Shown here in pieces: positions 1 to 25,245 of a stretch of 36,553 bases of DNA. The stretch lies in the IMG/VR virus record IMGVR_UViG_3300025141_000322, positions 1-36,553 of that record. One strand, given 5' to 3'. The notes under the pieces are model-generated. The model searched no databases. It was not told the DNA's origin and saw nothing but the letters and a program-made list of their open reading frames with translations. This DNA comes from a virus. The stretch's first letter is position 1. Each line of letters opens with the position of its first letter. Both the position numbers and the translations under genes were made by a program.

Positions 1-2163
1 ATCGCCAGAACCGGCACTTGATGCGTTAATATCCCAAATCGAAAACTGAATCGTGACAACATTGCCGACTCTGGTGTAATACCCAAGATTCGAGGTGTAA
101 GTGTAAGTCCCTGCGGTGGTTGCCCCGCTAATCGTCGGAGTCCAAGTGCCTTGCTCAAAATGGTCAAGCGTTGTGGCAACCATCGCCGCGCCGGTTGCGC
201 TTGTGTCGGTCTGACTGCTGAACGCAATCCCGTTCGAGAAGGTCGCGAGGCCGGTAGTCGAGAAATTCATAAACTCGACTCCGTTTGTGCCGTCGTCGTC
301 CATTATGCCAAACTGCAACTTGCCGCTATTATTGCAAATATAGTTCGAGTTGTCGGCGTTGTTGGCGTCTTTGAGGATAACCCCCGGCCCGTTGGAGGCA
401 ACGGTCAGCCACGGCGCAGCGTTGGTCTGTTTAAATGTTGGCGCACTCTCGTTCACGCCCACGTTTCCCGTGCTGTCGATGGTGAGCGCGTCTGTCCAAG
501 TCCCCGTTGTATTTATATCATCATCTGCCGTCCCGCTGGCTGCGACAGAAAATGTATGACTCCCCGCGCCTTGTGCATACTTTGTTGCCGCCGCGCTGGT
601 GGCATACTTCCAATCTCCAGAATTGTAATAGTAGTTGCTACCGATGTAAAAATATTCGTTCGATGACACAACATGCGAGGCGTTGCCCAATTGCAGCGCA
701 ACTCCCGTTCCACTCCAGTTGGCATTTGGCGTCACGCCCACGCCCACGTTGCCATCCGAGTCGATGGTGAGGCGAGTTGCGCCGCCATTGAGAACTTTAA
801 AGTCAGTGCTATCAAACAGCAAATAACAATTATCTGCTGCGCTGTTTTTTAGGTTGATGTGGCATTGCGTGGTAGCGGAGTCCGCTTGCACCGGTACTGT
901 GCCGGTTGAACTAACGTGCAAAGTGCGGCTTGGCGTAACCCCCGCCGCCAAACCAATGCCAACCAACGGAGTCGTGCCGCCGACATTTAGCTTGTTCGTG
1001 TTGACCGCTTCAATCTTCGTGACTTGAGTAACGCCACTAGATGCCGTGCCGTCCAAGAGGTTTGTCGAACGGTCTTGCACTTGGTCAGATTGGGTCGGGT
1101 TGGCGAACGCTAGGTCGTAGTCAGCCACGCAGCCGATTTCGACGATTGAATTAGACACACTCGCTGCGTCTAGTTGAATCGTTCCCGTGCCAACAGCGTA
1201 CACCAAAATGTTCCCGTTTGTTGACGCATCGGCTGTGAACTCAAAAATGTTCGTCGTTGACGCTACCAGCGTTCCAATATCATTAAGCGAACCGTCATAT
1301 TGCATCACCTTGTAACCATCGCCTGTGATTGTTCCAGTTTTTAGCGTGACACGATACTTTTTGTTGGCAGTTAAAACTCCGGGGTAATAAATGCCGGAAT
1401 TTACACCAGACGTTGTAAATTGCAGCAGATTGCTGGCGACAGATATATCTGTGGGTGTTCCGTTTATTGCCCAAGCGTAATTGGTGTTAAATGTCGTTCT
1501 ATCGGTTACATCATTGCCGGTATCCGCTTGGTCGGTTCCCCAATCTTGGTCAACGGAAGCAGTAATCTTGTTCGTCTGCACTCCCCATTGGTCGGAAAAT
1601 GGCACGGTAGCGTTCTCGTAGGTCGCCGTTACCTCCGTGCTGGAAAGCGTCTTGTTCCAGAATCGGGCGCGGTAGATTGTGCCGTTGAACCTCTCGTCGA
1701 AATCGCCCGTGTAACGGTCGCCAATTGTTGCATTAGTGGCGTCGTCAATATCTGACGTTGCCCCAAGGTCTGCCGTCCCGACTTGGTTCCCGTTGTCGTA
1801 GGCAATCGCAGAAGTGCCGTCCACCGTCACAACGAGGTGGTGAACTTTTAAATCATCAAGAAAGCTAGTCCCGAAATCTCGTTCACCAGTATCGTAAATC
1901 TGGAGAGTCCCGTCTATTGAAGCTAACGCAAACCGTCCAGCACCACCAAAATCAACAATGTAGGCATAGCCCGATGCTGGAATCGAGTCGGCTTGCAAAA
2001 TAAACTCGAAACTGAACTTCGTGCCGAGATTTGGAGGCGATGCAATGTTGATGTCGCTAGCCGCACCGTCGAAGTGCAGACCTTGGCCATCGCTGGCATT
2101 TACCAGTTCGCGGATTATCTCGCCGCTGCTGGTCGTTTTTGGTGTGGTTAAGGTTGCACTCAT
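1..2163 (-). CDS. LamG-domain fibre / receptor-binding protein (3' end cut by window)
   Basis: The minus-strand frame is open from the ATG at 2163-2161 through all 721 codons to base 1, so the protein is truncated at its C-terminus by the window edge. Residues about 28-185 look like a concanavalin/LamG jelly-roll: LHFDGAASDINI near the start, then KVHHLVVTVDGTSAIAYDNG, IGDRYTGDFDERFNGTIY and an ARFWNKTLSSTEV ending typical of these domains. The second half has phage-fibre repeats (TLHVSSTGTVPV, LTIDSDGNVGVGVTP, LTIDSTGNVGVNESAP). The last visible stretch (GTWTPTISGATTAGTYTYTS, then GYYTRVGNVVTIQFSIW) is common near tail-fibre C-termini. It probably binds a host surface glycan. The start overlaps the preceding stop. 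Its place directly after the capsid module is unusual for a tail fibre, so a head fibre is also possible. Confidence 0.8.
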   Translation of the reverse strand, partial: MSATLTTPKTTSSGEIIRELVNASDGQGLHFDGAASDINIASPPNLGTKFSFEFILQADSIPASGYAYIVDFGGAGRFALASIDGTLQIYDTGERDFGTSFLDDLKVHHLVVTVDGTSAIAYDNGNQVGTADLGATSDIDDATNATIGDRYTGDFDERFNGTIYRARFWNKTLSSTEVTATYENATVPFSDQWGVQTNKITASVDQDWGTDQADTGNDVTDRTTFNTNYAWAINGTPTDISVASNLLQFTTSGVNSGIYYPGVLTANKKYRVTLKTGTITGDGYKVMQYDGSLNDIGTLVASTTNIFEFTADASTNGNILVYAVGTGTIQLDAASVSNSIVEIGCVADYDLAFANPTQSDQVQDRSTNLLDGTASSGVTQVTKIEAVNTNKLNVGGTTPLVGIGLAAGVTPSRTLHVSSTGTVPVQADSATTQCHINLKNSAADNCYLLFDSTDFKVLNGGATRLTIDSDGNVGVGVTPNANWSGTGVALQLGNASHVVSSNEYFYIGSNYYYNSGDWKYATSAAATKYAQGAGSHTFSVAASGTADDDINTTGTWTDALTIDSTGNVGVNESAPTFKQTNAAPWLTVASNGPGVILKDANNADNSNYICNNSGKLQFGIMDDDGTNGVEFMNFSTTGLATFSNGIAFSSQTDTSATGAAMVATTLDHFEQGTWTPTISGATTAGTYTYTSNLGYYTRVGNVVTIQFSIWDINASSAGSGD

Positions 2164-2483
2164 GTTGTCTGGTACTCCACTACTTGCACCGTGTAGCTAC
2201 TGCCCCCGGCATAGGTCTTTATTGCCCCTGTGTAACCGTCAACCTTCAAAAACCCTCCATCTCCCCCAAGACTTGAGGAAGGTGCAGACAGAATATAATG
2301 AGCATTGGTCGAGGTTGGTGTCGTGGAATCTAGGCGAACATAAATTTCGTCTGTTCCCATGTTCTGAAAAGTGATTGATGTACGGCTAGCATTTGAGCTG
2401 ACTTCCTGCTCAGTGGTCTGACTGACCCTGCTCGTACCCGCGCCCGTAGGCACTACGTTGTTGCACCAAAGTGGATTTGCCAT
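2160..2483 (-). CDS. Small structural protein after the capsid gene (unknown)
   Basis: 107 residues starting MANPLWCNNVVPTGAG; rich in Ser, Thr and Gly with alternating hydrophobic residues, which suggests a beta-rich structural protein. No family is recognised. The start is supported by an AGAAGGAAC Shine-Dalgarno about 10 nt upstream. It sits between the major capsid gene and the LamG fibre and overlaps the fibre start by 4 nt (ATGA). By position it could be a capsid decoration, head-fibre anchor or fibre base protein; this is inference only. Confidence 0.7.
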   Translation of the reverse strand: MANPLWCNNVVPTGAGTSRVSQTTEQEVSSNASRTSITFQNMGTDEIYVRLDSTTPTSTNAHYILSAPSSSLGGDGGFLKVDGYTGAIKTYAGGSSYTVQVVEYQTT

Positions 2484-2509
2484 TGTCTTTTGTTCCTTCT
2501 GAAAATTCT

Positions 2510-2560
2510 AATTAGGATGGAGGGAAGGGGGTTGAGCACCCCTCCCCCCCGGTTGTTGTT
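2510..2560 (-). other. GC-rich imperfect hairpin between capsid and next gene
   Basis: On the minus strand a G-run is followed by GGGG, loop TGCTCAA, CCCC and then CTTCCCTCC. The 4-bp core extends outward with an A/C mismatch and several G-T pairs. No T-run follows, so it is not a clear intrinsic terminator. The next ribosome binding site lies about 30 nt downstream, the same hairpin-then-SD arrangement seen before several early genes. The adjacent CTAATTAG is a perfect 8-bp palindrome. Confidence 0.4.
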
Positions 2561-2571
2561 ATTAGGTCGGC

Positions 2572-3516
2572 TTACGAATCTGCGGTTGTGATTCGCTTCA
2601 CGCTGATAGATGAGGTGAGTTTTACGTCTCGACTCCAATCAACAGCATAAATGTCCGAACGACTGCTTTCGTCACGGTACTCGCGCACCGCCGTTACCCC
2701 ACCGCGCCCACCTACAAAGGTCTTAAACGCTGACGGGTCGTAAATGGTCGGGCTTGCGCTGCGAACAAACACATAGCAATCGTCGCCATTCACAAATGAA
2801 TTACTGCGAGTTTTGCCCTGCTTGGCCGTGTCGTAAGCCATCGTGGCCAAACGAATCTCCGTTGATGGATTGATAAGCATTGCGGATGCTTGCCCTTGGT
2901 TTAACCCAATAAGCGCTGCACCCGGTTGCTTTGCGACTACCTTGGCATTGTTGCGAAAACGCCTCCATGCCGTCATGCCCATAAGAATGGCATTTGGCAA
3001 CGTGCCGGTATCCTTGGCAATTGCCTCAATGATGTAATCCAACTGTACAACAGGGTCAACCGAAGCAGAACCCCATACGCCCATTGCACCGCCGCCAACC
3101 GAAGTGGTAGTGGCTGTGATATCATCTGCAACAGAGTAAACGTGCTTCTCATGTGAGAGAACGCTGCTCTGCACCAAAGTCTTGACCTTGGCTTGCTCCA
3201 AATCCAACGGGTTACTGGTTCCTGCCGCATCACGCTCGGAATCATCAATTGATATTTCCAATGCCTGTGGCATACAGTTGTAGGTTGGCTCACTTACGTC
3301 CATGAAGATACGCCTTGCCGAACCGCCTACGCCCCTTGAGGTGTCATAAGTCTGGAAGGCATTCTTATCATCGTAAGCCTTGTATTGTCCAATTGTTGCT
3401 GGCACCTGAACTGGTGGCGCCAACCAATCGGCCGTTGCTGATTGCAAATCGTTCAGAACCCCACTCGCATAATTGGTGAGGGTCGGATTGACTGATGCTT
3501 GTGATCTTAATCCCAT
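2572..3516 (-). CDS. Major capsid protein
   Basis: 314 residues with the length and feel of an HK97-fold major capsid protein of the Mu-like (gp34) type. Visible regions include TNYASGVLNDLQSATADWLA, an N-arm and E-loop-like segment, IEAIAKDTGTLPNAILMGMT followed by WRRFRNN, and the C-terminal YDPSAFKTFVGGRGG. The phrase in which a metal- or binder-like region gives way to 'FNGDDCYVFV'-type strands is common in phage capsids. It follows protease-scaffold and a small decoration-like gene, the standard Mu-type order. The function rests mainly on order, length and general sequence character, not on a diagnostic motif. Confidence 0.8.
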   Translation of the reverse strand: MGLRSQASVNPTLTNYASGVLNDLQSATADWLAPPVQVPATIGQYKAYDDKNAFQTYDTSRGVGGSARRIFMDVSEPTYNCMPQALEISIDDSERDAAGTSNPLDLEQAKVKTLVQSSVLSHEKHVYSVADDITATTTSVGGGAMGVWGSASVDPVVQLDYIIEAIAKDTGTLPNAILMGMTAWRRFRNNAKVVAKQPGAALIGLNQGQASAMLINPSTEIRLATMAYDTAKQGKTRSNSFVNGDDCYVFVRSASPTIYDPSAFKTFVGGRGGVTAVREYRDESSRSDIYAVDWSRDVKLTSSISVKRITTADS

Positions 3517-3541
3517 AATGTTTTAGTATCCTTGGTGAATG

Positions 3542-3919
3542 TTAGACAGCCGTGTAAGAATTAACCAAAGCTGCCTCAACTAATTCATCAGCAACCCCTG
3601 CTTCCATAGCCACCCCTGCCACGATCTTGGTGCTGGCGTGCGCCTTCCAAGTTCCATCGGTGTGTATCATTAGATTTCCACCAAGGGCAACCGTGCCGCT
3701 CAGCTTAACCTTTACCGTGCCGCTTGCTCCTGCCATTGCCGCAATCGTGCTCTTGCCCGTTGTGGTTTCTCCATCGACAATTACGCCGAAGTTTCCGCTA
3801 TCCGCTGTTGAAATTGCAGCCTCTAAAGCCACTATCTTGACAGCATAGCCCTCTTTTCCAGTTTGGTCTGCCGCTGGCGTTAGCGCGATCAGCGACGTAT
3901 CTCTTGCTATTGATCCCAT
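3542..3919 (-). CDS. Capsid decoration-like protein (DUF2190-type)
   Basis: 125 residues beginning MGSIARDTSLIALTPAADQT; many small residues and short beta-like strands (GTVKVKLSGTVALGGNLMIH, then DGTWKAHASTKIVAGVAMEA). This Gly/Ala/Val-rich pattern, with a central DGTWKA segment, resembles the DUF2190 and decoration-protein families that sit between protease and capsid genes. It would trimerise on the capsid surface and stabilise the head. The neighbours (protease-scaffold upstream, capsid downstream) support this. A different small head protein is possible. Confidence 0.65.
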   Translation of the reverse strand: MGSIARDTSLIALTPAADQTGKEGYAVKIVALEAAISTADSGNFGVIVDGETTTGKSTIAAMAGASGTVKVKLSGTVALGGNLMIHTDGTWKAHASTKIVAGVAMEAGVADELVEAALVNSYTAV

Positions 3920-3940
3920 ATTAGTATGTTAGTGTGTGTT

Positions 3941-5062
3941 TTAGTTAAACAGTTGTGGACTGTCATAACGTGTGGCATCCCAAGCCTGCTCAAAAGATGA
4001 ACCGTTTTTAGCTTGATACTCCTTGGCTGCACGCATCTGCGCTTCACCATTCGTTTCGGTTGCTCCACCCTCATCACGCTTGGCTTGCACCACTCGCTGA
4101 AAGGCGGGGTTCATCGGAAGCGCATTAAGGGCCATTATTGCTGATGGGTCAGTCTGCAAAATGGTTACCCACTTCGCCTTAACCTTCTCATCCTTTGGCG
4201 GGATGCGTCCGTCCTCTACGGCTTTGTCAACGGCAGCTTGAGCAGCAACTTCTTGCTCCTTCTCCTTGTCGTCTTCCATCGCCTTGATTTTGGCTTTCAG
4301 TGTTTCGTTTTCCTTCTTCACTTCGGCCAGCTCCTGCGCTGAAGTCTCGTCCTTTTTCTTGGACTCATCATCCTGCGCCGCTATTGGTTTTTTGTCTTTT
4401 TCTTCTTCAGTCATTTGACTTTCAGTTTTGTAATCATCGCCTTCCGAGGCAACAATCGGTGTTATGTCCTTGAACGCTGGCCGATTTACCAAGCCTCCCG
4501 CATTCAAAGTTGTCCCCTCAATCTCGCCTCTTGAATTAAGCGTGAATGTTGGGCTAAATTTTCTGAAGTTCCTGCCTTGCAGGGCTTCCTCTCCTGCCTT
4601 TGTCCACTCGACCTTGGCACGAACCCCCCCAACTTCAGGGTCTGCTCCCGCCCAATAGAAGCCGGTAACCCAACCGCTCGCCTCTGAATCGTCATGGTTG
4701 AAATCAATAAACACTTGCTCTTTGTCGCCTGCGGTTATCTTGTCGAAAGATTCCTGCAACAACTCGGCTGTGGCAGCACTCACATCAACGGTGAGCGAAG
4801 CCGGTTTGCCATTTTTGGTTGCCGTGATGTTGTGGTTGCCGGGGGGTAAATACTGAATATCTTCTGGCAACTCATCCCCCGCAATGATTGAACTGATTGC
4901 ATGAACAACGTCCCGCGACTCATAGCCCTTCGCTTTGTATTGGCTATTACATGCAGCGTACCGCTGTTTTTCGTTTGTAAATTCCTCTTTCATTGTATCG
5001 TTTGCCATGCAGCTTGAAATGAAATCCGCTTTCGGTTCTCCATTTGGTGTGGGTAAGGGCAT
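3941..5062 (-). CDS. Prohead protease-scaffold, Mu I-protein-like
   Basis: 373 residues. The N-terminus has the segment FISSCMANDTMKEEF followed by QRYAACNSQYK, which is often found at the front of phage portal- or protease-region proteins. Residues about 70-210 resemble the Mu-like I protein protease domain: QVFIDFNHDDSEASGWVTGF, RAKVEWTKAGEEAL, FRKFSPTF and GLVNRPAF. Residues about 225-300 are highly charged and helical (EEEKDKKP, ELAEVKKENETLKAKIKAME), as in a scaffold. The protein would organise capsid assembly and then be cleaved, releasing space for DNA. The gene overlaps the preceding one (TAATG), so translation is coupled. No catalytic residue was assigned. Confidence 0.8.
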   Translation of the reverse strand: MPLPTPNGEPKADFISSCMANDTMKEEFTNEKQRYAACNSQYKAKGYESRDVVHAISSIIAGDELPEDIQYLPPGNHNITATKNGKPASLTVDVSAATAELLQESFDKITAGDKEQVFIDFNHDDSEASGWVTGFYWAGADPEVGGVRAKVEWTKAGEEALQGRNFRKFSPTFTLNSRGEIEGTTLNAGGLVNRPAFKDITPIVASEGDDYKTESQMTEEEKDKKPIAAQDDESKKKDETSAQELAEVKKENETLKAKIKAMEDDKEKEQEVAAQAAVDKAVEDGRIPPKDEKVKAKWVTILQTDPSAIMALNALPMNPAFQRVVQAKRDEGGATETNGEAQMRAAKEYQAKNGSSFEQAWDATRYDSPQLFN

Positions 5063-5781
5063 TAAGCTGTTTTCCTTTCCCCTAGCGTTTCAACCCAATA
5101 AGTCACCCCTTCATTAAATACATCAACGATTTGCATTTCAGTTGGGATACTGTTTGGCCAAGGCTTCTGCGTGACGGACTTCTTGAGCAAGTAGTAAGGG
5201 GTGAACCCCGATTCCTCCTGCATGGTAGGTGTCTCCCGCTCTGGCACCTTTAAACCCAAAGTCTTATTCTCCCTCTTGGGCCTCTCTGTCTTAGGCAGCT
5301 TCCGCTTCGCCTCCTTCTTGGCGCTGAACTTCTGGCGCGGAACACTCCCGCTAGACTTGTCTGGCTTCACCAAAAGCAGATTGCCCTTCTTGCTCTTAAC
5401 AACAAACAGGTCAGGAAAACGCCTTGCCCTTCTGTCATAAGCTTCTGGTGCGAGCGGAATGGTGAGGTATTTAGACCTTTTCGCTGTTATTGTCCCTCCC
5501 TTGATCTTGTGAGGGAGAATGTCACCATCTATTGCAACCACCACTTTGCCCGTCCCTTCCGATTTGGGTGCTTGAACATTGCCCCCAATCCTTCGGTTCC
5601 AGAAATGAGTCCTTCTGCCGGGGGCTAGTTTGTTTGGTTCATTAGCATCCTTTTCCCTGTAAAACTTCTTGAGGTAGCTCGTTACACCCCTTGCCCCAAC
5701 GGTAAGCACATCTGTCAGTTCCTTATCAGAGAACTTCATGCGTGCAATGCCAGAGGGCAGTTCTACCTTGGTTGCAATCAT
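5062..5781 (-). CDS. Mu gpG-like virion morphogenesis protein (tentative)
   Basis: 239 residues, strongly basic with a long charged stretch (RQKFSAKKEAKRKLPKTERP) and a C-terminal segment FTPYYLLKKSVTQKPWPNSI followed by FNEGVTYWVETLGERKTA. The position between portal and protease is where Mu-like phages keep gp30/gp31-type morphogenesis or tail-completion proteins, but the MuF domain normally found here is absent and lies instead at 11356-13176. It overlaps the portal stop by 4 nt (ATGA). The family assignment is weak; unknown head-assembly protein is the safe reading. Confidence 0.6.
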   Translation of the reverse strand: MIATKVELPSGIARMKFSDKELTDVLTVGARGVTSYLKKFYREKDANEPNKLAPGRRTHFWNRRIGGNVQAPKSEGTGKVVVAIDGDILPHKIKGGTITAKRSKYLTIPLAPEAYDRRARRFPDLFVVKSKKGNLLLVKPDKSSGSVPRQKFSAKKEAKRKLPKTERPKRENKTLGLKVPERETPTMQEESGFTPYYLLKKSVTQKPWPNSIPTEMQIVDVFNEGVTYWVETLGERKTA

Positions 5782-7454
5782 ACTGGTGCCTCCTCAACCT
5801 TGGCCAATGGGGAAGCCTCAAAGCGTTTCACCGCTCCGTTTACCATTGCTGCCCCCATGTTCCTCTCCATTGCGTCCTGCAATACCTTTGTGTCCAACTT
5901 GTCAAACAGTTCAGGCATCGTGTTTGCCGCCTTGGTTACAGCCCTTTCAAAATCCTCATCTGAAAGGTCGCCATCCATTGCCTTGCTCACCAACTGAACA
6001 AAAGCGGGTTTAACCGGGGCAAGCCATGCCTCACTCACTCCCGTGATATCCTCCATGACATTGTTAAGCAGCTTATCCCTTGGCCCCGGCTCTGCCCTCT
6101 GTGCAGCTTCCACCACTCCCTCCTTGGCGAACATAGGTGGCTGCATTGGGGAAGGCTCTGGTGGAGTAATTATCTCCTCCCCTGATTGCGGTATTGGCAC
6201 ATCGTGACGGTCATAGAACCATTCACGTGGCATATCAATGCCGCTCCCTAAAAGTATTTGATCTCGTTGAGCTTCAAGCACGGGGTCGCTTGGCCCAGCA
6301 AGGTCAGGCACCAACTTGGGCATTTCAAAGGAGTTGCCATAATTCAGTTCGCACATGGAGGCAATCAACTGCTCATTCAGAACATCTGCTGCCCATTCGC
6401 AAACATCCTGCAACCGTGTTCGCCTCACATCTTCGTGAACATCACCCAATGCACGACTGCCAGAATCACCCACATCAGTCGTGAGGGTCTGGCCTAAAAT
6501 TGTTATGTCACAAAGCTTGTCAGCCAATTGGATGAAATAGCTTTGAGGGTTGTCTTGTCCTGACTTTCCCGCCTCTTTAAACTCTACCTGTGTCCCCGCT
6601 GGAAACGCTCCCCATGCAGCCGCTCCCATGTTTTCCAACATATCCGCAATGTCATTCTTTATGTTGGCTGATGCACCGGGGTCATAAGTAGCCCAGCGCA
6701 GGGGTTGCCCAAACACTTGGGCGAAATTAAGCAACCAATCACGGCAATAGTTTTGGCCACTCCACCAGTAAGCCAATTGTCTCAACAACCCATAGCCCAT
6801 CGAGTTGCCAGAGCGGTTCTTGTAAATGCCAATGAGAAACTTGTTCCGTGGAACTTCCTCGTAAACCCCATCACCCTCCGGTGACAGCATTAAATCGGGT
6901 TTATCATAGGGAAAAGAATAATAGCGGGGATGGCAGAAATAAGTTGAGGCAGGACAAATCCCCTCTGGCTTCACTTCCCAAAGGATTTCCTGCACGCTGA
7001 ACCCTTTGCCTACTCCATCACATAAATCATAGATGGCATTGCGGAAGCCGTTTGTTCCCTCAATCGGGTTGCCTACCCATCCATCAATGGCATATTGAAC
7101 GAAGTCAGCCTTTTCCTGAGCCGAATCCGTTGGCCTTTGCCCACGTTCGGTGAACGGCATAACGGTGTAGGTCGCCCCTGCCGCTGCGCTTTTCAGTTCG
7201 TGAAGGTTCTTTGAGAGCCTCGCCCATGAGTCTTCCATCAACTCGTAGACTTGGTATTGCTGGCGAATATCCCCACTTAAGGCGGCGCGAAGAATAGCAA
7301 TCACATGGGCAGGGCTTTGTTTGCTCCCCAGCGAATTACTGTCCATCCGGTCGCGGTTATTAGGTGCGATTACCCGTTTACCTACGGATGTCCCATTCGG
7401 CCCTTTCTTGGCGGTAAACAGTTTCCCTAAGCGGTTACTTAAATCAGCAATCAT
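5778..7454 (-). CDS. Portal protein, DUF935 / Mu gp29-like
   Basis: 558 residues, typical for this family. Recognisable pieces are HVIAILRAALSGDIRQQYQV with YELMEDSWARLSKNLHELKS, the region FSVQEILWEV, GLLRQLAYWWSGQNYCRDWL followed by FGQPLRWATYD, and TDVGDSGSRALGDVHEDVRR, all characteristic of DUF935 portal proteins. The dodecameric portal forms the DNA entry channel and the docking site for the terminase and the tail. The C-terminal 120 residues (DITGVSEAWLAPVKPAF onward) are helical, as in gp29. The gene is coupled to the terminase by an ATGA overlap. Confidence 0.92.
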   Translation of the reverse strand: MIADLSNRLGKLFTAKKGPNGTSVGKRVIAPNNRDRMDSNSLGSKQSPAHVIAILRAALSGDIRQQYQVYELMEDSWARLSKNLHELKSAAAGATYTVMPFTERGQRPTDSAQEKADFVQYAIDGWVGNPIEGTNGFRNAIYDLCDGVGKGFSVQEILWEVKPEGICPASTYFCHPRYYSFPYDKPDLMLSPEGDGVYEEVPRNKFLIGIYKNRSGNSMGYGLLRQLAYWWSGQNYCRDWLLNFAQVFGQPLRWATYDPGASANIKNDIADMLENMGAAAWGAFPAGTQVEFKEAGKSGQDNPQSYFIQLADKLCDITILGQTLTTDVGDSGSRALGDVHEDVRRTRLQDVCEWAADVLNEQLIASMCELNYGNSFEMPKLVPDLAGPSDPVLEAQRDQILLGSGIDMPREWFYDRHDVPIPQSGEEIITPPEPSPMQPPMFAKEGVVEAAQRAEPGPRDKLLNNVMEDITGVSEAWLAPVKPAFVQLVSKAMDGDLSDEDFERAVTKAANTMPELFDKLDTKVLQDAMERNMGAAMVNGAVKRFEASPLAKVEEAPV

Positions 7455-8770
7455 ACCAACGTAGGCCTTAACCCGGCCAATTTAGCTCGGCCAAGCATGA
7501 TGTTATCAGTCTCTTGAATTGCCCCTGTTCCTTGGTTCAATACCGCTGCGTAGTTTGCCAACGCCAATGCCGTGCAACGGTCTGCATGACCATCTGCCCT
7601 TCGCATCGCCCGGTACTGCTTATTACCCCCCGGCGTTGTCAATTCATCAATGGAATGTAAATCCTCCCTTATTACATGATCCCTCGGCACCCTCAAGGAA
7701 CGCTCTTGGAAAGCCCTGCGCAAACCGGGGAAGATTTTAGCCTTAAAACCCTGCGAGAAATTGCATTGCTCCAGCTTGTACTCAAAGCGATTGGCCAATG
7801 ATTCGCTCACGGCATTCCCGATGCCAGTTGAATCTATGGCCGCATGTGACGCCTTGTTTATCCTCTCCGAAAGCAGTTCCTCCTGCAGATGGTAGGGCGT
7901 GTCCCTGAGCACCAAAACCTCCCTTGTCCACATCACATCCCCAACCTTTTCCAGAGTCCAGCAAACTGTCAGGTCATGTTTGCGGCCAATATCAATGCCG
8001 ACATACCTTACAGCCCTCCCCATCTGTTCGTCACAATCAAGGGTTGCCTCATCGCTGACGCACTCATCTATCAGCGTGTAAGGAAGCAAAACATTCGAGG
8101 CATCAACAAACTCGCATTCGTATTCCTGCTCCCAAGCCTCAGGGTCATCCAATCCACGCTTTAAAGCTTCAGCATCCATCGGCAATCCTTCTTCAATTGC
8201 TGAATGAATGGTTGTTTTGTGCCTTACAAAGCTCAATGCATCAGACTTGTTCCATATCTCAAAAAACTTGCTATTCCTTCCCGCCGGGGTGCTGATGATT
8301 CTGATTTTCAGCTTCCCCCTTAATGGGTTTGAGATGGCCGGGTAGATAGCCTCATAGATGCGGTCTGGCTTTTCATGGAAAGCGAACTCATCCAGCACTA
8401 GGTTGGCAGAATACCCACGCACCGTGTCAGGGTTTGCTGGTAGAGCTAGGATTCTTGAGCCATTGCTAAACCGCACCTCGCTGGTACGACAGTCAGGCTT
8501 ATCCAAGCCAAGGGCATCAGATACCACCCTTGCAACCCTGTTCCCCTTTAGCATCCATTCCTCGGACTGCCTTTGCCCCGCTGACAGCACCACCCAATCG
8601 GTGTTGGGCTTATCCACACAACTGGCAACAGCCTCAAAGGCTGAACCAAGCGAACCGCCTATCTGCCGGGATTTTAGCCATATCTTAAAACGCGAATCGT
8701 CCGCAACCCACCTTTGTTGGTAAGGCAGCATCAACTTGAACAATGCTTTTGCGCGTTCCGCTTTAGTCAT
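7451..8770 (-). CDS. Terminase large subunit, Mu gp28-like
   Basis: 439 residues. ATPase: a deviant Walker A at residues 33-42 (KSRQIGGSLG), Walker B at 125-130 (VLDEFA) and the coupling motif STPAG at 160-164. RNase H-like nuclease: GIDIGRKHDLTV with D260, AIDSTGIG with D313, and HADRCTALALA with D397 supply the acidic triad. The enzyme cuts concatemeric DNA and pumps it into the prohead. The lack of a classic GKS Walker A is normal for gp28-type terminases, where an SRQ-type loop replaces it. The start ATG directly follows the stop of the small-subunit gene. Confidence 0.95.
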   Translation of the reverse strand: MTKAERAKALFKLMLPYQQRWVADDSRFKIWLKSRQIGGSLGSAFEAVASCVDKPNTDWVVLSAGQRQSEEWMLKGNRVARVVSDALGLDKPDCRTSEVRFSNGSRILALPANPDTVRGYSANLVLDEFAFHEKPDRIYEAIYPAISNPLRGKLKIRIISTPAGRNSKFFEIWNKSDALSFVRHKTTIHSAIEEGLPMDAEALKRGLDDPEAWEQEYECEFVDASNVLLPYTLIDECVSDEATLDCDEQMGRAVRYVGIDIGRKHDLTVCWTLEKVGDVMWTREVLVLRDTPYHLQEELLSERINKASHAAIDSTGIGNAVSESLANRFEYKLEQCNFSQGFKAKIFPGLRRAFQERSLRVPRDHVIREDLHSIDELTTPGGNKQYRAMRRADGHADRCTALALANYAAVLNQGTGAIQETDNIMLGRAKLAGLRPTLV

Positions 8771-9214
8771 TCAATTGTTTTCGGGATTAGGAGCGCCGAG
8801 CATCTCCCTCCATTGGACAACGAGTTGCTTCTCACTAACCACATGGCCAGAATGCTCCACATTCAAGTCAGCCTTATCGCTGAACCCGCAAATGTTCTTG
8901 AGAGCAAACAATAGACTCACCACATTATTGTTTTCTAGGGCCTGTTGAACCAACTTACGCTTGAGTGAAGTTTGAAGCTTGGCCTTTCCCTTTTCATAGG
9001 AAACGCGAAACTCGCTGTCCAATTCCTTCATTTGCCGCTGAATCACATCATGCGAACAGCCGAGTAGAGTGGACATTTCAGCGAGAGTAGCATTAAGGCC
9101 TCCGAGCCGCTCAACCAAGTCTAGGTCAAAAACGGTCTTGGGCCTTCCACCGGGATGCTTGCCATTACTGGCTGGCTTCGGTGATGTTAAGCGGTTGCCT
9201 GTCGTTGCTCCAGC
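8771..9214 (-). CDS. Terminase small subunit
   Basis: About 147 residues from the ATG at 9214. Residues near 19-25 read GKHPGGRPKTVF, then LNATLAEMSTLLGCSHDVIQ forms a helix-turn-helix, followed by a long helical region and KRKLVQQALENNNVVSLLFA with LKNICGFSDKADLNV. This HTH plus LKNxxGxSD pattern is typical of phage small terminases, which recognise the packaging site. The open frame continues upstream to a TTG at 9256 (161 residues); neither start has a convincing Shine-Dalgarno, so the true start is uncertain. Confidence 0.85.
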   Translation of the reverse strand, partial: AGATTGNRLTSPKPASNGKHPGGRPKTVFDLDLVERLGGLNATLAEMSTLLGCSHDVIQRQMKELDSEFRVSYEKGKAKLQTSLKRKLVQQALENNNVVSLLFALKNICGFSDKADLNVEHSGHVVSEKQLVVQWREMLGAPNPENN

Positions 9215-9297
9215 CATCAGCAAAGAGCATGACGTAAGGGGCAAGGCCTTTATCAACAGTTAATTTAGCTCAATAGAAGCCAAATGGATTTAATCTG

Positions 9298-9537
9298 TTA
9301 ATCTTTGTGGTCGGGAGGGGCTATTATCAGCCCTTGTCTCCTAGCTTGTTCCACTAGGTATTTGACTGATTTATTGCCAAACCAGTACTCGCCATTTTTT
9401 CGGTGAATGTAGTGTTTATTGAGGTGGGCTTTGTTTACCCCATCTGATTTGGGTTGAAGTTTATTAAGCCACGCAACTTGTGATGTCTCACCTACGCCTC
9501 TGTCGGAGTAGCTACGCATGGTGATGATATTATCCAT
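9298..9537 (-). CDS. Small basic protein, possibly DNA-binding (unknown)
   Basis: 79 residues: MDNIITMRSYSDRGVGETSQ, then a basic C-terminal half with YIHRKNGEYWFGNKSVKYLV. No family recognised. The start overlaps the end of the upstream HTH gene by 8 nt, so the two are probably co-translated. The small size, charge and pairing with a HTH protein suggest a role in regulation or packaging-site recognition, but nothing specific can be claimed. Confidence 0.6.
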   Translation of the reverse strand: MDNIITMRSYSDRGVGETSQVAWLNKLQPKSDGVNKAHLNKHYIHRKNGEYWFGNKSVKYLVEQARRQGLIIAPPDHKD

Positions 9538-9721
9538 AGTTAAATCCTCCCTTATTTAAGTATCGCTCTAATTCCTGTCGCAGAACCAACGGCTGTGAGC
9601 CTGCAACGATTGCTTTTATTTGCCCTAGCTTAATCATCATCCGAACTCTGTAGCGGGTAACGCCGATGATTTCAGCCACTTGCGGCACTGAGTATGATGG
9701 CTTGTTCAAAGTGATCTGCAA
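9530..9721 (-). CDS. Excisionase/MerR-type helix-turn-helix protein
   Basis: 63 residues with a compact HTH: YSVPQVAEIIGVTRYRVRMM, then IKLGQIKAIVAGSQPLVLRQ and ELERYLNKG. This is the HTH_17/excisionase pattern in which a helix-turn-helix precedes a short wing. Candidates are an Xis (recombination directionality factor) or a small transcriptional regulator. It is far from the integrase (13 kb away), which argues mildly against a classic Xis. The start is a TTG at 9721 with a GAAAG upstream and is uncertain. Confidence 0.7.
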   Translation of the reverse strand: MQITLNKPSYSVPQVAEIIGVTRYRVRMMIKLGQIKAIVAGSQPLVLRQELERYLNKGGFNYG

Positions 9722-9763
9722 CTTTCTTGAATTTGCGGTGTTAATGATTTTCTGAACATCAAG

Positions 9764-10501
9764 TTACACTCCATTGATAGGCACCTTGATGATAGGATTG
9801 ATGTCGTAATTGGTCTTGCTTCCGTTGTCGCGCTTAACGATTTTGCTTCCCCACTTCTTCTGTAACAGGTCGAACTGCTCTTTTTCCTTCTGGATAGTTC
9901 GATAGTCGGCACAACCTCCCTTATTGGTATGTTGTTTGCAGACATAGTGAGCGTAGTTTATTCGTAGTATCTTCCTGTGTTTATTCAGCATTTGCAGGCA
10001 TATATCATAATCTTCCTTGAGTGGTAATGTTTCATCATATCTGCAATCTGCATTTAGGAATCCCCCGAAAGGGCCTAGCACTACATTATTGAAAGAGAAC
10101 GGTGTATATTCACGGTAAGCACCTTTGTCGGGTATGATGTTGATGCCCCAAAAGCGCACATCCAACTGCTTGGCTAGGTTAAAACCGCCTTCAATGAACT
10201 CATAGGCGTCCTCTGTGGACATTCTTGCCAACTTGTTACCGTTCCATCTTCCGATGTAATTGATATCGTCATCGAGAATTAGCACATTATCGGTCTTGCT
10301 ATTATCAAGTATCCAATTCCGCACCCTGCCCACATTCCCCTGTGCTGAGTCGGGGCATTCCCATACAGGCAAGTCATTCTCTCTGTAAGCCTCCGCTTGG
10401 GATTTGCAGACAACATACTGCACCTTGTCGAAGTACCTGTGCGTAAACGCACCATCTGCTCGCTTCCAGCTAGGGGCCGCGATGGTTAATCCCTCCTTCA
10501 T
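9764..10501 (-). CDS. TET-associated-type glycosyltransferase (TAGT-like), candidate DNA-modifying enzyme
   Basis: 245 residues from an ATG at 10501 that overlaps the upstream ParB-like stop (TGATG). Features fit a GT-A nucleotide-sugar transferase: YVVCKSQAEAYRENDLPVWE and CPDSAQGNVGRVRNWILDN, then a metal-binding VLILDDDINYIGRW with Asp at 77-79, and LKEDYDICLQ at 161-170 as a possible catalytic acid region. The RNWILDN...LDDD arrangement resembles the TAGT family, known from phage base-hypermodification gene clusters but also found alone. The substrate is not shown: no dioxygenase or hydroxymethyl-pyrimidine synthase is visible here. A SD-like AAGGAGG lies inside the first codons, so a rare ATC start just downstream cannot be excluded. 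Confidence 0.7.
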   Translation of the reverse strand: MKEGLTIAAPSWKRADGAFTHRYFDKVQYVVCKSQAEAYRENDLPVWECPDSAQGNVGRVRNWILDNSKTDNVLILDDDINYIGRWNGNKLARMSTEDAYEFIEGGFNLAKQLDVRFWGINIIPDKGAYREYTPFSFNNVVLGPFGGFLNADCRYDETLPLKEDYDICLQMLNKHRKILRINYAHYVCKQHTNKGGCADYRTIQKEKEQFDLLQKKWGSKIVKRDNGSKTNYDINPIIKVPINGV

Positions 10502-11142
10502 CAGTTTAAGCTGTTCAGATAGCTTGCCCCGTCGACTACCCGCCCGATGCCCTGTGACCAAGGCTTCCCGTTCTGGCGCTTGGCCGCGACCGTCTCTAGG
10601 TTGAAATGAGTCTGAGCAGACAGCCAATCGATGTCGTTGTTAAACTTGAGCACGATGTAGTTGTTCGACTCGCTGATTGCCTCAGAAAACTTAATCTCCC
10701 CTTCCTGTTCACCTCCATCCATGTCGAGCAGCTTGGACACCTCATCACCATCAAAGCCGGTCAGTTCCATGTCGAAATCAAGGTTGTTCAAGCCAGATAA
10801 CAACTCTGTGAGTTTGTCATCACTTAAGCCTGACAATTCAGCTATGCGATTATCGGCTACCAAGTGGGCAAACTCCTCTGCCTCATTCTTAAACTCCTGC
10901 TCGTCAATTGGTATTTGCTGAACATTAAGCAGCTTGGCAGCTTCCAGCCTTCCATGCCCCGAAACAATGAACCCGGTTTTCTTGCTCACCACTATTGGGC
11001 TACGCCATCCCGAATGTCGGATAATCTTGGCCAGCATCGCAATCTGCTTATCTGGATGCTTGTTTGGGTTTTGAGGGTGCGGCACTAAATTCACCACATC
11101 CTCCATTTTTGTGTGCTTACAATGTACTTTAATTTCGCTCAT
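10501..11142 (-). CDS. ParB/Srx-fold protein
   Basis: 213 residues from the ATG at 11142. The N-terminal domain has the ParB hallmarks: VPHPQNPNKHPDKQI at about 20-34, then SPIVVSKKTGFIVSGHGRLE with GHGR at 62-65, and a following AAKLLNVQQIPIDEQEF. The motif order NPN-H then GHGR matches phage ParB-like proteins that accompany DNA methyltransferases, terminases or nucleases. The C-terminal half (about 110-213) is helical and acidic and not recognised. It may act as a DNA-binding nuclease or nucleotide-dependent switch. No ParA partner is present, so partition is unlikely. It is translationally coupled to the glycosyltransferase. Confidence 0.8.
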   Translation of the reverse strand: MSEIKVHCKHTKMEDVVNLVPHPQNPNKHPDKQIAMLAKIIRHSGWRSPIVVSKKTGFIVSGHGRLEAAKLLNVQQIPIDEQEFKNEAEEFAHLVADNRIAELSGLSDDKLTELLSGLNNLDFDMELTGFDGDEVSKLLDMDGGEQEGEIKFSEAISESNNYIVLKFNNDIDWLSAQTHFNLETVAAKRQNGKPWSQGIGRVVDGASYLNSLN

Positions 11143-11143
11143 G

Positions 11144-11371
11144 TTATTTGACTTCTTTAATCGCCAAAAGTTCCTCAAGTGTGGGGTGGGGTGGGGTCAA
11201 GTCCTCCCAATAGCCACGGGCTAGAATGGATTGCAAGTTGAACTCGGCAAACCTTTCTTTGTCGCCCCAATCCACCACCTGTGCGGTTGTTTCGCTTAAT
11301 TGAATCAAATAAAGCTCGTTGCCTTGTTCAGCTATGATTTTCGGGTATTCGCTTCCTAATCTGTTGACCAT
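11144..11371 (-). CDS. Small acidic protein in immunity position behind the MuF protein (unknown)
   Basis: 75 residues: MVNRLGSEYPKIIAEQGNEL, then LIQLSETTAQVVDWGDKERF and LEELLAIKEVK. It overlaps the end of the MuF-type gene by 16 nt and begins with a canonical AGAAAGGAATAAAATG start. The sequence is acidic and small, with no transmembrane segment or known domain. Polymorphic MuF toxins are often followed by a small immunity gene, so this gene is the best candidate for that role, but this is inferred from position only. Confidence 0.65.
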   Translation of the reverse strand: MVNRLGSEYPKIIAEQGNELYLIQLSETTAQVVDWGDKERFAEFNLQSILARGYWEDLTPPHPTLEELLAIKEVK

Positions 11372-18331: not shown

Positions 18332-18565
18332 ATGACTGAACAGGCCCGAACTAGGTCTTTCCGCATACCTGACGAAGATTGGGCTGTTGTTGTTGAGCAT
18401 TGTGAAAGCCGGGGCATTACCCCAACCCAGTTCTTGCACGAAGCGATTGCAGAAGCGCTGGGCAAAACCAGTATTAGCTCTGTTCTGGTCGACCAAGATG
18501 CGGTTGATTCTTTGAATCAGCTTCCTGACTTGGTTGAACAATTGAAGCGGAAGCTTCGCAAATAA
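18332..18565 (+). CDS. Ribbon-helix-helix (Arc/ParD-type) regulator
   Basis: 77 residues, the only convincing plus-strand gene. MTEQARTRSFRIPDEDWAVV gives the beta-strand with R, S and F in the DNA-contacting positions, then a typical RHH helix pair (VEHCESRGITPTQFLHEAIA, EALGKT). The C-terminal helix (LNQLPDLVEQLKRKLRK) may oligomerise. The frame extends to an ATG at 18251 but that would translate the operator repeats, so the ATG at 18332 is preferred. It probably represses its own promoter and, through the shared repeat at 23177, the early operon. It is the best candidate for a phage repressor here. Confidence 0.9.
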   Translation: MTEQARTRSFRIPDEDWAVVVEHCESRGITPTQFLHEAIAEALGKTSISSVLVDQDAVDSLNQLPDLVEQLKRKLRK

Positions 18566-22438: not shown

Positions 22439-23215
22439 TTGTTGTCCTTTCTGTTAGTGAGGCGGGATTGCCTCTTTCAATTTTCAAAACATGAATCAAC
22501 CCAAAGTCTCCTGTCGCTCCAATTCAGGAAGGGGGCAATGTTATTGTCACCTCGCGCTTGCTCTTTGGTAGACAGCCTCCCTTATGACTTCAAAGGAAGC
22601 TTGTTGGATTCATTGAATTGATTGTGCCACAAGCCCTCGGTTTTCCATCTTACGATGTCCGGAGGGGAGTGGCGTTCCTGTTTAGGCATTAACTAAACAA
22701 CGGTTGGCATCTCTGCCAGAGCCTTCAATCTTGAAAACTGAAAGAGACAAGCGGGGGTTGATTCCCCGCAAGCCCTTATTGATTACCATTCTTTATTTTG
22801 TTTACGGGATGATTTTCTGCTCCTTTAGCATTCGCTTGGATTTAGCAGTCCGCTGGGGTTTATTTTATTTTACCCTGCCCCGTTTGCTGCCCTTTCTCGT
22901 TTCGGAGATGTGGGGAGGTTTTTCTTTGGGACATACCAAAGCCTCCACTCAAGGGTGCTAGGGGGGTGGGATTCCGAGGTCGTTCCCTCACCTACTGATT
23001 GAATCAGTCCTGAACGTTACCGCCGTCAGGGCGTGCGAATTAGTTTTACCCTTGCCAAATTCTAGCAAACCCCTTGCAGGGGCGGTATTTTTACAAGTAC
23101 CTGAGCTTGTTCCTTTCAAACCCGGCTGCAACCGGGATCGGAGCATTTCCGATACACCAATCATACCAAATGCACAGCGCAATGCAAGTGAAATGCGTAA
23201 CTTTTGTTTACTCCG
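22439..23215 (-). promoter_or_regulatory. Gene-free control region between integrase and early operon
   Basis: Almost 780 nt without a supported gene. Any transcript from the promoter at 23187-23160 would have a 5' leader of about 715 nt. On the minus strand it contains: ATCGGA/TCCGAT with a 5-nt loop (23153-23137), CCCGG/CCGGG around TTGCAG (23136-23121), an orphan SD GAAAGGAACAAG (23117-23106), CCCC/GGGG with a TGCAA loop (23082-23070), GCGGGG/CCCCGC (22769-22751), GTTTAG/CTAAAC (22698-22680) and GAGGC/GCCTC (22474-22459). Short frames exist but none has a good start or codon character. It could hold leader RNA, antisense RNA or an origin. Confidence 0.55.
23160..23187 (-). promoter_or_regulatory. 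Candidate early promoter with embedded operator repeat
   Basis: Minus strand: TTGCAT (23187-23182) as -35, a 16-bp spacer, and TGGTATGAT with TATGAT (23165-23160) as an extended -10 (5 of 6 matches to TATAAT plus TG). The -35 lies in the inverted RHH repeat CTTGCATTGCGC (23188-23177), so a bound regulator would block the polymerase. Predicted start near 23153, where the leader hairpins begin. It would drive the early genes from 22438 on. The spacer is slightly short, so strength is uncertain. Confidence 0.6.
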
Positions 23216-24268
23216 TTAAAACAAAGGGGAAATGTTGAAATAATCGTTTCCCGCCTCCTTGGTTACCAGTTCCCGGTAATGCCTAAACAGCATTTTGCTG
23301 TCCCTATGCCCAAGTTCATGAGCAGTCTTTCCAGCATCCTCGTAAGCAGCCAGATGGTAACTCGCAAATGAATGCCGCATAATGTCGGCGCTCCATCTCC
23401 CTTTGTGCGCTGCGAGGCGCTTCTGCTTATTGTGCAGGGGCAAATCTCCCCCAAGCGCCAACCACTTTTTTAAGTTTTCCTCTATCCTGACAAGTCGCCT
23501 CTTGCGGGTTTTAGACTTATCTGCTGCAACGTGGATATATCCCCCGCTTACATCTTTCCAAATTAATCGCTGAATCTCATCTGGCCGAATCCCTGCAAAT
23601 AAACCAATCGTCAGGTAAGGCAGAGCCTTGGGGTCATGCTCCTTGAATCTCGCCAGAAGTCGTCTCGCTTCCTCAACGGTGAAGATGTCCACCGCCTTAT
23701 CCTCAATCTTCGGCCTCTCGTAAATCGTTACCGGGTTTGCCTTGGAATAATATTGCCTCCCAGTTGCCCATGTGAACAAAGGCCCAAGCTTGTTTAGTAC
23801 ACCATCAACCGTGCTGGGTTCCCATCTCTTTGTGTCAAGGTACTCTGCCAGACTTTCAACGGTTAATGAGTCGAATGGTATGTTTCCGAAATGCTTGCCG
23901 AAATCCGCAAGGTGCAACTTGATCTGTTTAAGGGTGCTTGACCTTAAACGCTGCTTGATCTTGGCCCGGTTGTACTCCTTTAGAACATCCAGCAATGGCT
24001 TGGTGTGCTGCTTCCTAAACCCATTGACTGCCGATGTAAGCGTAATCTGCTTCACATTCGCCTGCCAAAAGGCATTCATAATATCCAACCGCTGCGAATC
24101 TTTCAGCCGTTGCCAGAACAATCCATACAGCCGCCCCTCATCCACCTCCGCAACCCAATCCCTTGCCGATTGTTCATCCCGAAAGAAACGCTGTTTGCGT
24201 TTGCCTCCAAAACATAAAGAGACACGCCAGCGCACATTGCCATGCTTAATGATCTTGCGAACAGCCAA
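23216..24268 (-). CDS. int: Tyrosine recombinase (integrase)
   Basis: About 350 residues from a TTG at 24268 preceded by GAAAGG; the open frame reaches a TTG inside the tRNA at 24364 and there is no ATG near the N-terminus. The N-terminal part (RWRVSLCFGGKRKQRFFRDE) is arm-binding-like, then a core-binding region (KQIKLHLADFGKHFGNIPFD). Catalytic block: GLFAGIRPDEIQRLIW carries the first Arg, DKSKTRKRRL the Lys, DIMRHSFASYH the second Arg (the usual His three residues before it is Asp), ELGHRDSKMLFRHY the His and the nucleophilic Tyr. It catalyses integration at the adjacent tRNA site. It is flanked by attP on its upstream side. Confidence 0.9.
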   Translation of the reverse strand: MAVRKIIKHGNVRWRVSLCFGGKRKQRFFRDEQSARDWVAEVDEGRLYGLFWQRLKDSQRLDIMNAFWQANVKQITLTSAVNGFRKQHTKPLLDVLKEYNRAKIKQRLRSSTLKQIKLHLADFGKHFGNIPFDSLTVESLAEYLDTKRWEPSTVDGVLNKLGPLFTWATGRQYYSKANPVTIYERPKIEDKAVDIFTVEEARRLLARFKEHDPKALPYLTIGLFAGIRPDEIQRLIWKDVSGGYIHVAADKSKTRKRRLVRIEENLKKWLALGGDLPLHNKQKRLAAHKGRWSADIMRHSFASYHLAAYEDAGKTAHELGHRDSKMLFRHYRELVTKEAGNDYFNISPLF

Positions 24269-24271
24269 CCC

Positions 24272-24451
24272 GGTAACCTTTCGGTAACACCAACCGGGGC
24301 GAATGCTGCTGATTATTTGGGGGGAAACAAAGCGAAATGGTGCGCACTGTTGGATTTGAACCAACGACTTCTACCGTGTGAAGGTAGCACTCTACCACTG
24401 CAAACCAGCGGTTTATCGCCTGTTTGTGCTTTTTGGTAACTCTTTGGTAAC
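24272..24451. other. attP: tRNA core flanked by paired GGTAAC arm repeats
   Basis: The tRNA-Val 3' segment (24338-24400) is flanked by two pairs of GGTAAC on the plus strand. Left: 24272-24277 and 24283-24288. Right: 24435-24440 and 24446-24451. Both pairs have exactly 5 nt between the repeats (11-bp period, one helical turn), fitting arm-type integrase sites. The integrase follows the CCA end in the same orientation. This layout, with phage genes on both sides, fits an attP rather than an integrated attL/attR. Confidence 0.75.
24338..24400 (-). tRNA. 3' part of tRNA-Val(CAC), attachment core (not a complete tRNA)
   Basis: The minus strand shows a full T-arm (GTTGG-TTCAAAT-CCAAC), an anticodon arm CTACC-TTCACAC-GGTAG with anticodon CAC (24380-24378), acceptor 3' strand AGTGCGC, discriminator A and encoded CCA. 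The 5' acceptor strand GCGCACT is missing upstream and the D-arm is incomplete, so it cannot fold as a functional tRNA. It is the identity segment that would rebuild a host tRNA-Val after integration. Confidence 0.8.
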
Positions 24452-24601
24452 TGCCGCAGTCCCTGCAGGATTACCGTCAGCATCATAAACCTTGTAGAAT
24501 GATGTTTTGGCTACCGGTCTTGTTTTGCTTCCCATTCCAACCTTACAAACAACCTCCGCGACCAAATCTGCCTTGGCTCCTGTTCGAGTGTTCTGCGTCA
24601 T
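24413..24601 (-). CDS. Small protein next to attP (unknown)
   Basis: 62 residues: MTQNTRTGAKADLVAEVVCK, then VGMGSKTRPVAKTSFYKVYD and ADGNPAGTAAVTKELPKSTN. Basic, probably small structural or DNA-associated. It starts in ATGA overlap with the lipoprotein stop and ends 9 bp from the tRNA segment, so it is the last gene before attP. No family recognised. Confidence 0.6.
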   Translation of the reverse strand: MTQNTRTGAKADLVAEVVCKVGMGSKTRPVAKTSFYKVYDADGNPAGTAAVTKELPKSTNRR

Positions 24602-24786
24602 TGTGATTCAATTTCCCTCTCCAAATCTGCAATGGTTTTAAGGGCATTACGAGTCCAATCTGGTGCCGCAGTTGCCGCAGCGTTGAACTGTGGATGTTTT
24701 ATCAACCTGTCCGTGTTGTTTAATTTCATCGTTATGCATCCGCTGGACGCCAATAATAGCAGCGTCAATAGCAGCGTTCTTCTCAT
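24598..24786 (-). CDS. Small lipoprotein, nested in the preceding gene (Rz1-like?)
   Basis: 62 residues from the ATG at 24786 (the frame is open 14 codons upstream). The N-terminus MRRTLLLTLLLLASSGCITM has a classic signal sequence with lipobox SSGC, so Cys17 should be lipidated. The mature part is about 46 residues with an acidic helical end (LKTIADLEREIESQ). It overlaps the 93-residue gene at 24647-24928 in another frame, like Rz/Rz1 pairs. However, the partner has no clear membrane helix, so a spanin role is only a suggestion. Confidence 0.6.
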   Translation of the reverse strand: MRRTLLLTLLLLASSGCITMKLNNTDRLIKHPQFNAAATAAPDWTRNALKTIADLEREIESQ

Positions 24787-24928
24787 CCCATCGCTTTCTA
24801 GCATCTTTTTTTGCCCTATTTTCATCATAGTCTTGAGCCACCTGAATTAGTGTTTTGCATAAATCAGCCACCTCTGGCACGGCATCGGCCAAGGATTTGA
24901 TTGTGTTTATTAGTGGTATTATTTCCAT
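24647..24928 (-). CDS. Small helical protein overlapping the lipoprotein gene (unknown)
   Basis: 93 residues: MEIIPLINTIKSLADAVPEV, then VAQDYDENRAKKDARKRWDE and a tail with CGNCG. The middle is highly charged and helical. In an i-spanin position it would need an N-terminal membrane helix, which is not evident. Its last 140 nt also encode the lipoprotein N-terminus in another frame, so both may be expressed or one may be spurious. It overlaps the Cys-rich gene upstream by 10 nt. Confidence 0.55.
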   Translation of the reverse strand: MEIIPLINTIKSLADAVPEVADLCKTLIQVAQDYDENRAKKDARKRWDEKNAAIDAAIIGVQRMHNDEIKQHGQVDKTSTVQRCGNCGTRLDS

Positions 24929-25245
24929 CTGTCTACCGGGCAGCTTTCAGCGCGGAGTATAGTCTTGTACTGCAACCAGCATCCGCACTTCGTGCATCTC
25001 TTGTTTTGCATAAATTCACACGCCTTGCACATAGCTTGGCGCTCCTTGATTACCTTTGGGTCAGCGTTGAGCGGATTGCCGCCTGCAAGCGACTTTAAGT
25101 TTTTAGCAAAGGAACCCACCACATTCTTCGCCATCGTCCCTTTAGTGGGCATTTCTGGCTTCGCATCCAGCTTCCACTTTAACGGTGTGACGGCTGGGTT
25201 CACTGCGATGATACCGCCAGCGGAATAACCTTTGTAACTGTCCAT
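24919..25245 (-). CDS. Small Cys-cluster protein (DUF6171-like)
   Basis: 108 residues with a C-terminal metal-binding pattern: ERQAMCKACEFMQNKRCTKC, then GCWLQYKTILRAESCPVDRW (C-x2-C, C-x2-C-x-C, then CP). This CxxC...CxxCGCxL...CPxxxW arrangement is typical of small zinc-ribbon proteins often next to phage tail genes. The N-terminal 60 residues are not recognised. It starts behind CAGGGATTC, a fair Shine-Dalgarno. Confidence 0.75.
   Translation of the reverse strand: MDSYKGYSAGGIIAVNPAVTPLKWKLDAKPEMPTKGTMAKNVVGSFAKNLKSLAGGNPLNADPKVIKERQAMCKACEFMQNKRCTKCGCWLQYKTILRAESCPVDRWK

Follow-up and report, generated by a model that had tools for sequence, protein, structure and literature searches.

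A probable attP with paired arm-type repeats around a tRNA-Val(CAC) segment in an uncultivated phage genome

Integrase gene, tRNA segment and repeat pairs at the locus

The window, i.e. the whole stretch of DNA analysed here, is an IMG/VR viral record of 36,553 bases, in which no end repeat was found. Its minus strand carries an integrase gene, a tRNA-derived segment and two pairs of short repeats, which are arranged as follows:

23189 to 24412 (approximate), minus strand: cassette of int, P' arm and core, absent in the close relatives L131, G307, G315 and G301
23216 to 24268, minus strand: tyrosine integrase of 350 aa with a TTG start (phrog_1, PF00589, AlphaFold fold)
24272 to 24288, minus strand: putative P' arm, GTTACC-N5-GTTACC when read on this strand; exact pair, separated from the integrase start codon by 3 nt
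24338 to 24400, minus strand: putative attP core, spanning tRNA-Val(CAC) from the D-loop through the CCA (63 of 75 nt), with 63/63 host identity
24413 to 24601, minus strand: conserved 62-aa ORF carrying the P-arm pair in its final codons; G315 and L129 have a 46% identical homologue at the equivalent position
24435 to 24451, minus strand: putative P arm, GTTACC-N5-GTTACC when read on this strand; exact pair, 34 bp away from the core and within the 3' end of the 62-aa ORF

Judged by sequence and predicted structure, the product of 23216–24268 is a lambda-type tyrosine integrase. The ORF, for which the TTG start was chosen as consistent with the integrase family, matched the phrog_1 integrase with an E value of 1.5e-32, while the match to PF00589 (E 5.6e-5, 23.4 bits) falls below the cut-off of 27.1. 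Comparison of the AlphaFold model (pLDDT 85.8) with lambda Int (1z19) yielded a Z score of 17.3 and an rmsd of 2.7 over 244 residues, covering mainly residues 87–338 and barely the N-terminal part. For the N-terminus, strands at 2–8, 11–20 and 23–29 and a helix at 32–54 were predicted (beta-beta-beta-alpha); by this predicted secondary structure, the first 54 residues would fit the expectation for an arm-binding domain. Residues R228, K253, R298, H321 and Y331 are invariant in alignment A1, their catalytic assignment being our own motif reading. The position of the box II His (HxxR) is taken by D295, which is likewise invariant in A1. Asp occupies this position in the clade of the window's integrase; most relatives have either Asp or Asn there. 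An excisionase (RDF) gene was not recognised beside int, and a search of viral contigs with the integrase alone yielded no close relative.

The core reads CAGTGGTAGAGTGCTACCTTCACACGGTAGAAGTCGTTGGTTCAAATCCAACAGTGCGCACCA on the minus strand (24400–24338), and the integrase gene was confirmed to lie on its CCA side, next to the P' pair. A 52-nt part of the core was compared with one genome per species (84,980 species) and matched in nine stretches. Each of these derives from a Verrucomicrobiota MAG, and several are marine by title. At each of these nine loci the host copy sits within a complete 75-nt tRNA-Val(CAC) gene, to which the core is identical at 63/63 positions, CCA included; the host search proposed with the original prediction was thus successful. 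The identity stops abruptly on the 5' side and ends 1–4 nt past the CCA on the 3' side. Missing from the core are the first 12 nt of the 75-nt tRNA, which comprise the acceptor strand at the 5' end and the first part of the D arm, and no complete tRNA was found in the window with ARAGORN. The earlier description as a tRNA-Val(CAC) 3' segment with CCA therefore stands, while its statement that the 5' half is lacking has to be reduced to the first 12 of 75 nt. At two of the host loci (L005 and L009), two tRNA-Val copies lie 2.8 and 4.3 kb apart, respectively. They were rejected as an attL/attR pair since both copies are complete tRNAs; no integrated element was evident between them, and at L009 an integrase remnant is located 3' of the first copy.

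Paired arm-type repeats are present on each side of the core. Both GGTAACCTTTCGGTAAC at 24272–24288 and GGTAACTCTTTGGTAAC at 24435–24451 are exact GGTAAC-N5-GGTAAC pairs with a period of 11 bp and the same orientation, as had been predicted. The distance from the core CCA to the integrase-side pair is 49 bp and that from the other core end to the far pair is 34 bp, in agreement with the predicted 50 and 35 bp. Only 3 bp separate the P' pair from the integrase start codon. Nowhere else in the 36.5-kb window does one 6-mer form two such pairs within 300 nt. A quartet of this kind occurred in 0/5000 dinucleotide shuffles of the 321-nt region and in 0/100 shuffles of the whole window, a figure that overstates the significance of the 24435–24451 arm taken alone, since this pair overlaps the codons for V-T-K-E-L-P of the conserved 62-aa ORF. 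From codon usage alone, the exact pair is expected at about 0.7%, and, given the overlap with coding DNA, part of this exact match may be due to chance. No integrase was found in G315 and L129, yet both possess a homologue of the ORF (46% identical) at the equivalent place, which reads GTCACCAAGGATTTACC where the window has GTTACCAAAGAGTTACC. Either the P arm was recruited from the gene, or these relatives lost the arm after loss of int.

Related integrases and their integration sites

In Verrucomicrobiota, the nearest integrases (41–46% identical) are encoded immediately 3' of complete tRNA genes, with the orientation found in the window. These are genes for tRNA-Val(CAC), tRNA-Val(GAC), tRNA-Gly(GCC) and tRNA-Leu(GAG). 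Integration of related phages elsewhere had been named as an argument against the attP; the related integrases do use Val-GAC, Gly-GCC and Leu-GAG and the closest phages are integrase-less, but the other targets do not contradict the attP, since the core beside each integrase matches its own target tRNA. A complete tRNA at this locus, which would also have spoken against it, was not found in related phages.

The 5' end was usable in 17 relatives. In 16 of them, a direct-repeat pair with a period of 10 or 11 bp (at least 7/8 matches) lies in the 50 nt preceding the int start codon. At random places of the same loci such a repeat is found in 4.4% of cases, which corresponds to a binomial P of about 3e-21; this value is indicative only, as the relatives share kinship. 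The clade of the window's integrase is supported by values of 99/99. Its five other members have a GTTAGCG pair adjoining the start codon, and the window has GTTACCG at the equivalent position; more distant branches of the integrase tree feature different motifs. The tRNA target differs among members of this clade, and tRNA-Val(CAC) serves as the target in two or more branches that lie well apart in the tree. In these comparisons, then, the repeat motif tracks the integrase lineage and the core tracks the tRNA. Such a division within one integrase family allows a direct test of the code by which the N-terminal domain would recognise the arms.

Two further arrangements were observed among these loci. 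L019 has, within 60 nt upstream of int, the usual GGTTAGCG pair and a second, inverted pair (CGCTAACCATTCGCTAACC), so that the attL there holds a long inverted repeat. L177 (1427–1560) has a GTTACC-N5-GTTACC pair just 3' of tRNA-Leu(TAG), beside a distant integrase.

An attR was recovered in two relatives only, most integrated relatives being short contigs or remnants. In G208:C35 (L147), a 5.1-kb element is flanked by 25-nt copies of a tRNA 3' end, with CGGCAGCGGACGGCAGCG as P' repeat and CGGCAGCGCGACGGCAGCG as P repeat in a shared orientation. In G278:C43 (L151), a 10.3-kb element is located in tRNA-Leu(GAG) and has GCCAT pairs at either end. The motif pair of each element occurs at exactly two places in 15.7 kb, near attL and near attR, in a shared orientation. 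The P pair is 48 and 52 bp from the core in these two relatives, compared to 34 bp in the window. At the sequence level, the order P – core – P' of the window thus corresponds to what is seen after integration in both relatives. These elements with an integrase of this family are small (5.1 and 10.3 kb; L147 at about 393–5520 and L151 at about 325–10673 in reverse-strand counts). As the 5.1-kb element has an ATPase-like ORF (GPPGCGKS), they may be satellites.

For the phage of the window itself, no lysogen was found in the searched collections, which may omit records very near the window. The core was not found in other viral contigs, nor was an attL-type pattern. At tRNA-Val genes in genomes an attL-type pattern was also not found, the sole genome match being an integrase at tRNA-Leu, and a search of a phage collection with 22500–25000 gave no match. 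The suggested search for prophages at this site thus yielded no lysogen of the window's phage; attL and attR were found for related integrases only.

Presence and absence of the integrase cassette in close phages

A search with the terminase yielded 52 related viral loci, most of them 85–100% identical in this protein. Three longer relatives (G301, G307 and G315) show the gene order of the window to either side of the cassette site, and no match to the integrase family was obtained in them; the predicted phage genes on both sides of the site were thereby found to be conserved phage genes. In these relatives as well as in L129 and L131, the interval from the DUF932 gene to the gene at 24.6 kb is occupied by other DNA. 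Homology of L131 to the window extends to 23188 and starts again at 24608, the two parts being separated by about 200 nt of different sequence. Comparison of the sequences thus indicates that at least four close relatives are without the int-core cassette, which the window's phage possesses. Since close relatives are without an integrase, lysogeny is not a fixed trait of this phage group.

The direction of the change is less clear. A tree of the flanking DUF932 gene did not separate the branching order of phages with and without int, and the cassette has a G + C content (49.0%) no different from that of the surrounding DNA. Gain is favoured over loss by parsimony only. Loss also happens: TM4, a Cluster K relative, is without a segment of about 3.5 kb bearing int and attP, which is thought to have been lost (PMC3203893). 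As a tentative scenario, which we consider possible and not the probable course of events, an integrase-less phage genus may have gained lysogeny through a cassette of about 1.2 kb comprising tRNA core, P' arm and int. A resident gene would have supplied the second arm from its coding end, a couple of substitutions sufficing. In any case, int and attP form a small cassette that is present or absent among closely related phages.

Interpretation and comparison with known systems

We conclude that the site is very probably the attP of a temperate phage of a marine Verrucomicrobiota host, in its non-integrated form (circular or virion). The predicted attP at tRNA-Val(CAC) with P and P' arms is corroborated by the identical host tRNAs, the related integrases 3' of tRNAs, the attL/attR repeats in relatives and the conserved phage genes to either side. 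The N-terminal domain of the integrase would bind the GTTACC pairs of both arms (P and P'), with the core-binding and catalytic domains acting on the tRNA-derived core. Strand exchange with the host tRNA-Val(CAC) would yield an attL with a complete, rebuilt tRNA followed by P' and int, and an attR composed of phage DNA, P arm and a copy of the tRNA 3' end. As read from the sequences, the host would contribute the first 12 nt and the phage nt 13–75, so that the tRNA would be rebuilt and stay intact upon integration. The P' pair is so close to the int start codon (3 bp) that the integrase, once bound, probably acts as a repressor of its own gene as well.

It is very improbable that the tRNA segment has no tie to the integrase and represents a degenerate phage tRNA gene or a remnant of past transduction. 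Phages frequently carry tRNA genes, but the segment shows perfect host identity over 63 nt with a sharp 5' end, lies beside int and is flanked by the arm pairs. Within a genuine attP, the GGTAAC pairs could instead be sites of an excisionase (RDF) or of an int repressor. RDF sites are likewise direct repeats one helical turn apart (PMC7498355), and the P' pair overlies the presumed int promoter region. We regard this reading as unlikely, since both arms bear the same motif, here as well as in two integrated relatives, the motif tracks the integrase lineage and no RDF gene was recognised beside int.

A comparably small probability is assigned to the P' pair being the sole true arm. The 24435–24451 pair would then be a by-product of coding for VTKELP, and the real P arm would be elsewhere or degenerate. 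The position of the pair within a conserved ORF, its frequency of 0.7% by codon usage and the int-less homologue that already reads GTCACCAAGGATTTACC are in line with this. On the other hand, the window pair is exact over both hexamers, and both integrated relatives have P pairs at 48 and 52 bp from the core (34 bp in the window). An attP with two integrase arms remains the preferred reading.

Such a layout is already known for lambda-type integrases at tRNA genes, with Cluster K mycobacteriophages as the close published parallel. The attP of CrimD features two pairs of 11-bp repeats around the common core, and Giles and L5 have direct pairs (PMC3203893). Cluster K phages (CrimD, Adephagia), L5 and Giles share with the window a core that is common with a tRNA or tmRNA gene and located 5' of a tyrosine integrase gene, as well as pairs of repeats of about 11 bp on both sides of the core (PMC3203893). 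The CrimD pairs are mutually inverted, whereas those of the window are direct, as in Giles and L5 (PMC3203893). The window differs from all of these in integrase lineage, host phylum and tRNA, and in having its P arm inside an ORF. At intS/attL of KplE1 (argW), integrase arm sites overlap the int promoter beside the tRNA gene and autoregulation was demonstrated (PMC2951348). The window has a similar arm site by the int start in a tRNA-integrase locus, its autoregulation being a proposal. Compared to lambda Int, the predicted three-domain fold of the integrase is alike and the core-binding and catalytic parts align with 1z19, whereas the identity is about 15%, the target is a tRNA and Asp (D295) occupies the box II His position.

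Tyrosine integrase, tRNA site and paired arm sites are also shared with Fionnbharth, which shows tRNA-dependent lysogeny: its core of about 10 bp breaks the tRNA and the phage brings a replacement tRNA (PMC10865867). In contrast, the 63-nt core of the window would rebuild the tRNA and the window has no tRNA gene, so this type of lysogeny was rejected for its phage. The perfect match over 63 nt also ties an uncultivated phage group to likely marine Verrucomicrobiota hosts.

Two other regions of the window deserve mention. Just upstream of the RecT gene, 18332–18565 (plus strand, opposite to nearly all other genes) encodes a small ribbon-helix-helix (Arc-like) protein, a candidate repressor; its longer ORF matched phrog_6506 with E 3.6e-5, and the match to RHH_1 reached only 0.037. 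At 9764–10627 (minus strand), a gene of the TET-associated glycosyltransferase family (PF20691, E 4.6e-13) adjoins a gene for a ParB_N-domain protein (10501–11178), and the two may point to DNA base modification.
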